Positions 39,895-44,437 of a DNA stretch of 64,000 nucleotides are shown piece after piece. The stretch's first letter is position 1, and each line of letters begins with the position of its first letter. The DNA lies in contig JARVGI010000005.1 of the NCBI GenBank assembly GCA_029762625.1, forward strand, positions 1 through 64,000, read 5' to 3'. The notes under the pieces were generated by a model, which saw only the letters and a list, made by a program, of their open reading frames with translations, searched no databases and was not told the origin of the DNA. The stretch comes from Methanomicrobiaceae archaeon. GTDB lineage: Archaea > Halobacteriota > Methanomicrobia > Methanomicrobiales > Methanomicrobiaceae. The position numbers were made by a program, and so were the translations under genes.

Positions 39895-40131
39895 CCCCAC
39901 AATTCCACTTTTCGAGAATGGAGTCAATTTTTGGCAGTTATACCAGAATCAGGACAAATGCTTCGGCGATACGAACCACAACATACATCCTGAGGATATC
40001 AGTCCTCGATACGAAGGATCGTTCAGCTCCTGATCGTTGCCCATGGTGCCAGCCCCATCTCATCACCCTGAGCATTGCCCCCGATCTGCCCCTTGCGGCC
40101 TCGCCCGTGTCCACAGAATCTCGTCCTGCAT

Positions 40132-40330
40132 ATGCAGCAGCAGGTGTGCGATACAGGCACGATCCTCTTTGAAATCGTGACGGCGATGAGCAACGCGGGG
40201 GTCACCACCGGATACCCCTCCCGGGGTATGGCAGACCCGGTGAACCTTCGCTTCCATCATCACCAGGTGGGGTGGCAGGCTCGAGGTCATCCCGGTGACG
40301 GCACTGATTTCCGGAATGGTACGGAGATGA
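40132..40330 (+). pseudogene. C-terminal remnant of a second trkH
   Basis: One frame gives 'TILFEIVTAMSNAGVTTGYP', matching the fourth pore loop of TrkH; after a shift near 40250 another frame gives 'FIITRWGGRLEVIPVTALIS' to a TGA at 40328-40330, matching the TrkH C-terminus. The remainder of the gene is missing. The residues differ from the intact trkH upstream, so it is a remnant of a diverged paralogue, not a recent partial duplication. Confidence 0.8.
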
Positions 40331-40387
40331 TTACCACTTTCGTGCATTTTTTTGGGAACCCGCCGAACACCACAAAAATTGCGTTGA

Positions 40388-40409
40388 CATCAATGAGATA
40401 ATATTGATG
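40388..40409. promoter_or_regulatory. Inverted repeat overlapping the TATA box of the nitrogenase-like operon
   Basis: catcaat (40388-40394) and attgatg (40403-40409) are exact complements around gagataat; the TATA-like ataatatt lies across the spacer and right arm, about 30 bases before the ATG at 40430. The position suits a repressor operator. It does not match the NrpR operator pattern I know. Confidence 0.5.
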
Positions 40410-40429: not shown

Positions 40430-41248
40430 ATGAAGCAGATTGCCCTCTACGGGAAGGGTGGAATAGGCAAGTCAACCACATCGGCAAACCTCTCCGCCGC
40501 GCTCGCGGATACGGGCCTTGATATCATGCAGATCGGCTGCGATCCCAAACATGACAGCACGCGGATGCTCATGCACGGGACGTGGATTCCGACCGTGCTC
40601 GACCTGGTCAGGGAGAAAGGGGATGAACGCATATCTGCAGATCAGGTGGTGTTCAAGGGCTACCGCGGCATTCGCTGTGTTGAGGCGGGCGGCCCTGAAC
40701 CGGGAGTCGGGTGCGCCGGGCGGGGGATCATCGCCACCTTCCAGCTGCTCGAGCGGCTCGATGCCCTCCACGGCGACGTGATCGTCTATGACGTACTCGG
40801 CGACGTGGTCTGCGGCGGATTTGCCATGCCCATGCGGGAGGGCTACGCGCAGGAGATCTACCTGGTCACGTCGGGAGAACTCATGTCGCTCTATGCAGCC
40901 AACAACATCTGCAAGGCAATCGCGCGCCTCTCCCGGAGAGTGCGGAGCAAGTGCGCCCTCGGCGGCGTGATCTGCAATTCGGCAAACATTGCCGAGGAAA
41001 ATGTGCTCGTGGAAGAGTTCGCCCGCAGGATCAACTCCCGCCTGATCGCTTACGTACCCCGGGACAGGATCGTGCAGGTGGCAGAGATCAACCGGCAGAC
41101 GGTCATCGAGTACGCGCCGGACTCCGCACAGGCAGGCGTGTATCGCGCCCTTGCCGCGGGCGTTCTCGAGATCACCAACACCGACCTGACCATCCCCACA
41201 CCGCTTGAGATGGATGAACTTGAATCCCTCGCACTTGAATTTGTCTAG
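40430..41248 (+). CDS. NifH-like ATPase (nitrogenase-like reductase component)
   Basis: A 272-residue NifH-family iron protein. It has the Walker A 'GKGGIGKST' (residues 8-16), 'GCDPKHDST', switch '[11 protein letters not shown]', and the two cluster-binding cysteines Cys95 ('GVGCAGRG') and Cys128 ('VVCGGF') that bridge a [4Fe-4S] cluster between two subunits. It delivers low-potential electrons with ATP hydrolysis to a component-1 partner. It resembles CfbC of F430 synthesis, but here it is followed by two NifD/NifK-type genes, overlapping the first by 35 bp. No nif assembly genes are in the window. Confidence 0.92.
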
Positions 41249-42257
41249 ATACGAAGGCTGCACCATCACCGGCGCACTTGCCGTCAGCGCGTTTATCCCC
41301 GATGCGCTGACGGTGGTGCACGGTCCTGCCGGGTGCGCCCACCACAACCTCTCGCTCCTGCACGCAACACTCCTCCAGCAAGACCGGCTTTTCCTCCCCC
41401 CGGTCTTCTCCACCGGGCTTCGCGAACCCGACATCATTTTCGGGGGGGAGGACGCACTGCAGCGGACCATCGAGCGGGCGCTGGAGCGCAAACCCCGGGC
41501 GGTATGCGTGATCAGTACCTGCATCGCCGAGACCATCGGCGATGATACAGATGCGGTCTGTGGCCGCGACTGGGGGGTTCCGGTGATCCACCTCCACAGT
41601 TCGGGATTTCTGGGCGGGTCTTTCAACGAGGGGTTTGTCAACGCCCTGAAACGGATTGCCGGCCTGGTGCCCCCGGCAGAGACACGGGACGGGGGCATCA
41701 ATATCGTCGGCGAGAAGAACCTGGAGTTCGAGGTGGAAGAAAACTTCGAAGAGGTTGCGAGACTGCTGGGAGTGCTGGATCTGGACGTCAATGTGCGGTT
41801 CGTGCGCAACGAAACGGTGGATGATATCTCCCGTTTTTCCGCAGGATGCCTCAATATCCTGCGCGAGCCCGCGCTCGATCCGATCGGAAGGCATTTTCAG
41901 GAGGCATTCGCCCAGCCCTATCTCTCCGGCTTTCCCGTCGGGCTGCAGGGAACGCGGGAGTTTCTCCGGGCGGTCGGGGAGGCCTGCGGTAGTGCGGCGG
42001 ACGAGGCAATCGCCGCAGAGGAAAGCCTGCAGGATGAACTCTCGGCTGAGTTTGCGGATCTCGATGGTGAGGCGATCAGCCTCTCCCCGTTCGGGTTCCA
42101 GTGCCCTGAGTTCTCCCTTCTCTCGGAGGTGGCCGAAGCAATCGGCCTGCGCATCGATCCGGAAGGAACGGAAATCCCGGTCCCCTTCGGGGCGCCGGTG
42201 GGAACGGCGGGGATACGGCGGATGCTGCACCAGTGGAGGCGGTTTCTCCATGCATGA
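41214..42257 (+). CDS. Nitrogenase component 1-like protein, D-type subunit
   Basis: A 347-residue member of the NifD/NifE/BchN/CfbD superfamily ('oxidoreductase/nitrogenase component 1'). Three cysteines sit where nitrogenase P-cluster ligands lie: Cys16 in 'YEGCTITGA', Cys41 in 'HGPAGCAHH' and Cys103 in '[12 protein letters not shown]'. No obvious counterpart of the cofactor-binding His of NifD is seen near the end. The CfbD-typical start (YPRPSPI-like) is absent. The ATG at 41214 lies in the 3' end of the H gene; a TTG at 41205 is possible. It overlaps the K-type gene by 8 bp, so it is likely part of a D-K heteromer. Confidence 0.85.
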
Positions 42258-43383
42258 TGCGGGCTGCATCAACCCTCTCTGGCCCTGCGCCATGACCGGA
42301 GCGGTGGCATGCCTTGCAGGATTCTCCGACCTTGGCGTGATCGTGCACGGCTCGTCCGGCTGCTACTACTACACCGAGACGCTCGTCCCCGTTCCCGTCC
42401 ACTCCACCTTCCTGGTCGAAGAGGAGGTGATCTTCGGCGCGGAGCGGCGGCTCCGGGAGGTGGTGGGGGATCTCGCGGCGATGTATTCGAGGGTTGCCGT
42501 CGTCAACACCTGCGTCCCCTCGGTGATAGGCGAGGACATACGCCAGTTTCTCGAGGAGTACGACGTGATGATCGTCGACGCCCCTGGCTTTTCCGGGCAC
42601 CTTGAGGACGGCTGGAAGAACGCCATCGACACCCTCGCGCCGGGCGTCGACGAGCAGCGGCAGGGCGTCAATATCGACGGGCTATTCTCCGCCGATCCCT
42701 TCTACCATGGCAACAGGATGGAGGCGGAGCGCCTCCTCGCCATGGCGGGTATTCCGCCCGCGACGCGGTTTTGTGCGGATACGCTCGGAGCAGCATATCG
42801 CGCAACGCCGGTCTCGGTTGCGGCAAACCCGGATTTCCGCTCGGGGGTGGGAACGGAGGCAGGGTCGCTCGTGGGTATCAAGCCCCTCAAATCCTGCTTT
42901 TCAAGGATCGCTGCGCTCTGCAGTGACGCGGATGTCGGTCCCGTCATGGAAGCGGTCGACGAAGCCGAGGAGCGGATCGTCCATACCTGCGACCGCCACC
43001 TCCGCCGCTTCGACCCGCCCGCGGCCGCTATTTTTTCGGGGTTCGGCCAGGCTGACGCGGTGGCGACCATGCTGCGCGACTACCTCGATGCCGAGATCGC
43101 AGTGATCGGATCGCGGAACCGGACCGGACCGTCGGCGTTCAAGGTGGAAGAGACCCGGGATCTCGACCATATCGCCGCCCTGATCGCGCGCCACGCCCCT
43201 GACCTGGTCATCGGATCGGCCTATGAGGAAACTGTTGCGGGGGGTGCGGCGTTCGTCCCGCTCACGCTGCCCATGCGGGGGCGGGTCATCCTCGCCCACC
43301 GCCCCCTCGCGGGAACGGAGGGCGCCCTCGGGATCATGGAATCGGTGCTCAATGCCTGCATGGACACAAAACAGAAGAAATAG
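42250..43383 (+). CDS. Nitrogenase component 1-like protein, K-type subunit
   Basis: A 377-residue protein of the same superfamily. It opens 'CINPLWPCAMTGAVACLAGF', the pattern of NifK/NifN/NifE N-termini, followed by 'HGSSGCYYYTE' and 'NTCVPSVIGED'. Cys13, Cys38 and Cys88 therefore occupy P-cluster-ligand positions, with an extra Cys6. A second domain (about 260-370) carries 'FSGFGQADAVATMLRDYLD' and 'GSAYE'. It completes an H-D-K trio with overlapping genes. The substrate is unknown; nothing here shows nitrogen fixation. Confidence 0.85.
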   Translation: MHDAGCINPLWPCAMTGAVACLAGFSDLGVIVHGSSGCYYYTETLVPVPVHSTFLVEEEVIFGAERRLREVVGDLAAMYSRVAVVNTCVPSVIGEDIRQFLEEYDVMIVDAPGFSGHLEDGWKNAIDTLAPGVDEQRQGVNIDGLFSADPFYHGNRMEAERLLAMAGIPPATRFCADTLGAAYRATPVSVAANPDFRSGVGTEAGSLVGIKPLKSCFSRIAALCSDADVGPVMEAVDEAEERIVHTCDRHLRRFDPPAAAIFSGFGQADAVATMLRDYLDAEIAVIGSRNRTGPSAFKVEETRDLDHIAALIARHAPDLVIGSAYEETVAGGAAFVPLTLPMRGRVILAHRPLAGTEGALGIMESVLNACMDTKQKK

Positions 43384-43400: not shown

Positions 43401-44437
43401 TCAATCAAATTCGTAATACTTTCTCAGCCAGTCGCGGATCTTTCGATCCGATCCACCCCCGGTCGAGCCGGTGGACGATATCGTTGATGACCCCGGCCTG
43501 TTCAAGAATGTTCTCCGCCATTCCCTCATCTTCCAGATGCAGCAGGGTGAGACCCACGATCACCTGAAGGGGGGTTCCGAAGATGGTCGTCGAGGATGGC
43601 AAACTGCTCCATGTTCTTCTCGATCTGTTTGAACGCCTCACATTTGAGTCGTTCCGTCTCCTTGCGCTCGCTGATATTCCGGGCAACCATGCGGGCCTCT
43701 GCGCCCCCCATATGCTCGAAGAGATGTGCATTGACCTCCATTGGAATGAGCGCCCCGTCACACCTGTTATCGACGGTCTCGTAGATGCCATGCTCGTGCT
43801 CGAGCAGTACCGCAGGAGTGATGCTATCTACTGGCAGGAAGGCCATGGTAAAGATACGGGTGACTTCCGCGTCAGCAAAAAAAACGCCCCATGACAACTG
43901 ATCCAGCCACTTCGTCGGAACCGGGGGCCAGCACAGGGCGGGATGCCACCAGCATGGGCCCTTCGGGGAACATCACAATCCCCGTGAGCGTCGAATCCGG
44001 ATCTTCATGGATGCTGAGCGGGAGCCCGGGGCCGATTGCCCCTTCAGGCTTTCGGGCACCGCAATGGACGCACCCTCCCCGACGTCAGATCCCCCGCTGT
44101 CGAGAATCCGGCCGGCGCCACTCACGATGAGGACGACATTGATGCCCGGTCGCTCGAGGATCCGATCATTGATGCTGGAAAACCCTCCCGTAGTGGAATA
44201 CCCCCCTGCATATGCACGCGTCTCGTCCCGGGAAGCCCACGCATAAACCACTGCATCGAGCATGGTGATATCGTCTGCCAGGGCGCACACGATGCGATCG
44301 CAGTTCTGCACAGCGATCTCCTCTTCTCTCCGGGCGAAGCCGCCAAGCAGAATACTTGTCGACGCAGCATGCAGAATAATCAGGAGACCAAGCAGTGTCG
44401 CCAGTATGATCACGCCGGTTATCTGGTAGATCTTCAC
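43401..44437 (-). pseudogene. Broken CHASE4/PAS membrane sensor gene
   Basis: In order on the minus strand: an N-terminal membrane helix ('MKIYQITGVIILATLLGLLI'), a CHASE4-like extracytoplasmic region ('VYAWASRDETRAYAGG', 'ESLKGQSAPG'), after a shift 'VMFPEGPMLVASRPVL' and 'DAEVTRIFTMAF', then a PAS end ('IPMEVNAHLFE', 'VARNISERKETERLK'), and after more shifts 'LQVIVGLTLLHLEDEGM' and 'GSDRKIRDWLRKYYEFD'. The last part matches the dimerisation-type C-terminus of Methanomicrobiales PAS sensors. At least three frame changes and a missing PAS N-terminus make it non-functional. It ends 18 bp from the nitrogenase-like operon, tail to tail. Confidence 0.82.

Follow-up and report, generated by a model that had tools for sequence, protein, structure and literature searches.

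DPOR (BchLNB) holds its [4Fe-4S] cluster by three cysteines and one aspartate. Nitrogenase-like relatives that lack the cofactor ligand are known to act on tetrapyrroles (PMC7242693), Mar binds an [Fe8S9C] cluster (PMC12552129), and the MCR activation complex draws on the [8Fe-9S-C] cluster made by NifB (PMC12176620). An arrangement in which NifH and NifD are fused was noted, with no function assigned to it, by Dos Santos et al. 2012 (PMC3464626), and Methanospirillum hungatei JF-1 is reported to carry a nifH-like gene without nifDK (PMC8597730). Nitrogenase-like reductases without cofactor ligands are already on record; the H-D-K variant described here, its conservation across the order and the accompanying displacement of cfbC were not found in the searchable literature. 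Our searches of the open literature returned no characterisation of D or K, and no paper that treats CfbC together with Methanomicrobiales.

The locus lies in the window, by which we mean the whole stretch of DNA analysed, 64,000 nt from one end of contig JARVGI010000005.1 of a Methanomicrobiaceae archaeon. A gene for an Fe protein with a Fer4_NifH domain (H) is followed by two component-1 genes, D and K, both of which matched the Oxidored_nitro domain in profile searches (Table 1). H and D overlap by 35 nt and D and K by 8 nt, in agreement with the original prediction of an overlapping three-gene nitrogenase-like operon, and an overlap of H and D, by 17–50 nt, is seen in 32 of 33 orthologous loci. 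The best start for D is the ATG at 41214, which also fits the residue numbering of that prediction. A pseudogene or truncated gene can be ruled out for D, as every orthologue used is 338–364 aa long. In Methanoculleus-type genomes (four loci), K is detached from H-D and lies ~2–3 kb away, mostly on the opposite strand. Conserved neighbours of the D/K locus (TrkH, an FprA-like flavoprotein, phosphoribulokinase and leuBCD) gave no hint of a substrate. Between trkH and H in the window (39918–40401) there is an apparent decayed, frame-broken second copy of the TrkH C-terminus (TAMSNAGVTTGYPSRGM vs SAMCNNGISTGYVSPDM); the ORFs 3' of K on the minus strand (43405–44437) look like pieces of a PAS-type sensor spread over several frames, probably a pseudogene.

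Table 1. Features of the H-D-K locus (positions in the window)
Feature	Position	Strand	Basis
H, NifH/CfbC-type ATP-dependent Fe protein, 272 aa	40430..41248	+	PF00142 361 bits; NF033200 CfbC 415.6 bits, cut-off 402
H Cys95 codon, [4Fe-4S] ligand position	40712..40714	+	GVGCAGRG motif
H Cys128 codon, [4Fe-4S] ligand position	40811..40813	+	GDVVCGG motif
D, NifD/E-side component-1 protein, 347 aa, shortened domain III	41214..42257	+	PF00148 190 bits; AF2 model; ATG conserved in relatives
D Cys16, P-cluster position	41259..41261	+	invariant 34/34; aligned with NifD P-cluster Cys
D Cys41, P-cluster position	41334..41336	+	invariant 34/34
D Cys103, P-cluster position	41520..41522	+	invariant 34/34
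D Arg217, at or next to FeMo-cofactor Cys position (NifD Cys275 / NifE Cys250)	41862..41864	+	invariant 34/34
K, NifK/N-side component-1 protein, 377 aa, three domains complete	42250..43383	+	PF00148 136.5 bits over 1-398; AF2 pLDDT 93.4
K Cys13, P-cluster position	42286..42288	+	34/35; 35/35 once one start corrected
K Cys38, P-cluster position	42361..42363	+	35/35
K Cys88, P-cluster position	42511..42513	+	35/35

H has a P-loop of the Fe-protein type at residue 8, and the two cysteines predicted to ligate its [4Fe-4S] cluster were both located in the motifs listed above. In an alignment of 108 proteins, the six cysteines of D and K occupy the columns of the P-cluster cysteines of NifD, NifK, NifE and most NifN, three in each protein as originally predicted. 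Their conservation was scored over 34 D and 35 K orthologues; the one apparent exception, at K Cys13, has its cysteine upstream of a mis-called start. Both AlphaFold models (pLDDT 88.7 for D; K in Table 1) match nitrogenase-type component-1 folds, the best match being MarD (9d9u) for D and VnfK for K. This agreement of cysteine positions and folds is far beyond chance, and the six cysteines suggest a putative [8Fe-7S] cluster of the P-cluster type.

The site of the FeMo-cofactor looks different in D. Where NifD and most NifE have the motif NLxxC, D reads NILREP, so that the cofactor cysteine is missing, and the protein stops short of the His442-bearing domain, with domain III reduced to a stump in the model. 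A FeMo-cofactor or L-cluster in D is unlikely because the cysteine is gone and so little of domain III is left; the cavity in D may serve a substrate. Several charged residues of domain II are invariant in D (Arg183, Arg195, Arg217, Glu171 and Glu180), with Lys168 near-invariant, and Lys168 and Arg195 are also present in the NifH-D fusions. Alongside these residues, a carboxylated substrate, for example a tetrapyrrole, is possible. Nitrogen fixation is ruled out by the missing cofactor ligands and nifEN.

The genome is 99.8% complete and H is its only true Fe protein. Other matches to PF00142 reach at most 37 bits, against 361 for H, and being so much weaker are probably MinD/ParA-type ATPases. 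H scores above the cut-off of the NCBI CfbC model and just under that for nifH. Four component-1 genes were found: D, K, a CfbD (P0005) encoded in a cfbE-cfbD-cfbB cluster, and a lone NifE-like gene (P0004). The CfbD cut-off of model TIGR03282 (268.4 bits) is far exceeded by P0005 (502.5 bits) and unmet by D (50.6) and K (45.5). Neither D nor K has the YPRPSPI-type start of a CfbD, just as had been predicted, whereas P0005 begins with MQYIQPRPSSI. The top score of D among NCBI models is for NifE, although none of the four genes rises above the NifE or NifN cut-off, and the Bch models were not passed either (best score 70.9 bits, cut-off 490). The absence of nifE and nifN claimed earlier is thus borne out, but that of nifB is not: a nifB-like gene is present here, and nifB occurs in 18/18 genomes tested. 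As for P0004 (424 aa; L010:6855-8129, minus strand, on contig C11 of the same genome), it keeps three P-cluster cysteines as well as the cofactor cysteine (NIVVCEP) and is separated from cfbB-cfbD-cfbE by an aminotransferase gene. Its relatives occur in other genera of the order and of the phylum, with no evident partner.

A search of the genome for a separate cfbC/cfbD pair yielded the cfbD and no second cfbC. Throughout the order the cfb operon reads cfbE-cfbD-cfbB, with a short gap between cfbD and cfbB and no cfbC (31/31 loci, comprising 30 order loci and that of genome G043), while six loci from three families of sister lineages read cfbE-cfbD-cfbC-cfbB. Since cfbC stands between cfbD and cfbB in the sister families and cfbB follows cfbD directly here, the gene order says that Methanomicrobiales has lost its operonic cfbC, and H is the sole candidate replacement. 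The view that the whole locus is distinct from CfbC/CfbD holds for D and K, but is not supported for the function of H, which is the sole Fe protein, passes the CfbC model, belongs to an order whose cfb operon lacks cfbC, and persists where D and K are gone.

D was detected in 201 of the 232 genomes of the order, and in 124 of the 135 that are at least 90% complete; K shows the same pattern. Across 296 genomes of the phylum, the best match outside the order scored 197 bits, compared to at least 413 inside it. The 80 relatives of D listed are all Methanomicrobiales by name or Euryarchaeota MAGs, and the closest named record among these matches is a Methanoculleus sp. MAG with 94% identity. Judged by these searches, D and K are restricted to Methanomicrobiales. 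CfbD was present in 60/60 order genomes tested.

Two groups have kept H and cleanly lost D and K: G043, which represents a further genus, and the Methanospirillum-type genus g127. In G043, H is the only Fe protein and CfbD the only component 1, and H sits between its usual neighbours with D and K missing from that junction. In g127, D is present in 0/12 genomes while H exceeds the CfbC cut-off in ten, and in the six loci opened the gene found after K in other genomes comes immediately after H. An assembly gap in G043 is ruled out by the intact flanks of H and by the same junction in closed g127 genomes. H proteins from D/K-free genomes form one group (support 89/92), consistent with a single loss of D and K. 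As these genomes still keep H, they say that H would have a job independent of D and K, for which CfbD is the only remaining candidate partner in G043; conversely, since D and K can be lost, some lineages manage without their product. G043 also retains nifB, probably for MCR activation, and nifB therefore has no bearing on D and K.

Phylogenies of the proteins, suggested with the original prediction, placed H as sister to the H half of archaeal NifH-D fusion proteins (96/85) and D as sister to the D half of the same fusions (100/100). Operonic CfbC forms a separate clade (100/100), and H falls outside it in the free tree; constraining H to that clade costs 15 log units and gives an AU p of 0.06, above the 5% level. 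The outcome named beforehand as refuting the original prediction, an H inside CfbC with no second copy in the genome, thus came out by half: no second copy was found, but the free tree puts H with the fusion H halves. This H tree leaves out BchL and uses trimmed fusion sequences. A first H tree, rooted on BchL, was dropped because one branch reached almost 4 and the fusion-H sequences aligned poorly. On the D side, the AU test rejects a grouping with NifD/NifE (p about 1e-104), as well as one with the NifE-like E4 group (p 0.0007). The D side was rebuilt alone, as the all-family component-1 tree, which holds no bona fide Mar sequence, did not settle the place of K or the order of the D-side groups. 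Together with the alignment, these trees uphold the idea that component 1 is heteromeric, carries cysteines of the P-cluster type but no ligands for a cofactor, and stands apart from NifDK, NifEN and CfbD. That H and D are sisters of the fusion halves, and not of operonic CfbC, makes H look like a paralogue that took over the job of CfbC. Their occurrence as one fused protein in other genomes is a Rosetta-stone argument in favour of H being the reductase of D-K.

We suggest that H-D-K is probably a nitrogenase-like two-component reductase of Methanomicrobiales, whose Fe protein also acts as CfbC, the electron donor to CfbD. Reasoning from sequence comparison, we infer the electron flow, the cluster type and the dual use of H. 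The H homodimer would dock on D-K, hydrolyse ATP and reduce a P-cluster-type [Fe-S] cluster at the interface of D and K; the electrons would then reach a substrate bound at the site used by the cofactor in nitrogenase, which in D lacks the cysteine and part of domain III. The same H would also donate electrons to CfbD in coenzyme F430 synthesis, as the cell has no other Fe protein and cfbC is gone from the operon. A tetrapyrrole may be the likeliest single substrate class for D-K, at a probability well short of even, because the characterised relatives without a cofactor ligand (BchNB, BchYZ and CfbD) act on tetrapyrroles. The fuller account, in which F430 is made with an Fe protein taken over after the loss of cfbC, and this Fe protein also drives an order-specific D-K reductase that has only a P-cluster-type site, no active-site cofactor and a new substrate, is one that we put forward tentatively, as somewhat less than evenly probable.

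H could alternatively be no more than an orthologous CfbC, relocated from the cfb operon and joined later by D and K, which would have an unrelated role. Its score above the CfbC cut-off, its retention in genomes without D and K and the failure of the AU test to reject its union with operonic CfbC at 5% would all fit, but the free tree pairs H and D with the two halves of the same fusions, and the genes overlap in nearly all genomes; we consider this explanation unlikely. If D-K were instead another reductase of the F430 pathway, this one heteromeric, with the Ni-tetrapyrrole of CfbD or a neighbouring one as its substrate (for example in an order-specific F430 variant), it would make sense that it shares an Fe protein with CfbD and that tetrapyrroles are the substrates of known relatives in which the cofactor ligand is missing (PMC7242693). 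The presence of CfbD in all 60 order genomes tested, however, indicates that D-K is no replacement for it, Methanospirillum-type genomes retain H in the absence of D and K, and D and K are unlinked to the cfb operon, which leaves such a role doubtful.

A further alternative is that D-K serves, much like NifEN, as a maturase or scaffold for the NifB-made [8Fe-9S-C] cluster of the MCR activation complex, with H helping. It draws on the occurrence of nifB in all 18 genomes and on NifE being the best-scoring NCBI model for D. Yet D has a stump for domain III and lacks the cofactor cysteine kept by nearly all NifE and all E4 proteins in our alignment, nifB stays where D and K were lost, and the union of D with NifD/NifE is rejected by the AU test, so we regard a maturase as quite improbable.

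Should the dual use of H be true, the F430 step of a whole methanogen order would rely on a shared, replaced Fe protein, and cfbC annotations in Methanomicrobiales would hide a paralogue. The order would also offer a natural collection of nitrogenase-like complexes that have P-cluster-type ligands but lack a cofactor site, with which one could ask what enzymes of the P-cluster type can do by themselves and by what route nitrogenase arose from the F430 pathway. Natural D/K-negative strains exist in Methanospirillum and G043, opening D/K function to direct comparison, and nifH-like genes such as H should not be taken as a sign of nitrogen fixation.

The nearest relatives of H and D are the NifH-D fusions, which have the same gene order and a D half that keeps the three P-cluster-position cysteines without the cofactor cysteine, as D does. 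They differ in that H and D are one polypeptide there and separate genes here, and their K partner has one cysteine (Asp/Cys/Pro) against three in K of the window, a set that recalls the three cysteines and one aspartate of DPOR. In loci L146-L153, from Methanosarcina-type and some Methanomicrobiales genomes, fusions of ~730–800 aa precede a K-type gene of 426–435 aa. Another locus (L202, G017 C1:2061500-2081400) packs three pairs of component-1 genes and one Fe protein into 20 kb, with a full nif cluster elsewhere in that genome. Compared to CfbC/CfbD, H scores as a CfbC and no other candidate partner exists for the CfbD in its genome, but it lies outside the operonic CfbC clade; CfbD is a single protein and has two of the three cysteines, whereas D and K are two proteins with three each. 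MarD is the best fold match of D and shares the P-cluster-type cysteine set, but Mar binds an [Fe8S9C] cluster, whereas in D the cofactor cysteine and the greater part of domain III are missing. NifHDK and NifEN have a similar heteromeric D/K fold and six P-cluster-position cysteines; D nevertheless has neither the cofactor cysteine nor the His442-bearing domain, falls in a separate clade, and its genome lacks nifE and nifN. DPOR and COR (BchXYZ) resemble H-D-K in having three components, with an Fe protein and a heteromeric component 1 that works without FeMo-cofactor. Their sequence similarity to D-K is low and D-K has six cysteines, but their tetrapyrrole chemistry offers a model for a possible D-K substrate.
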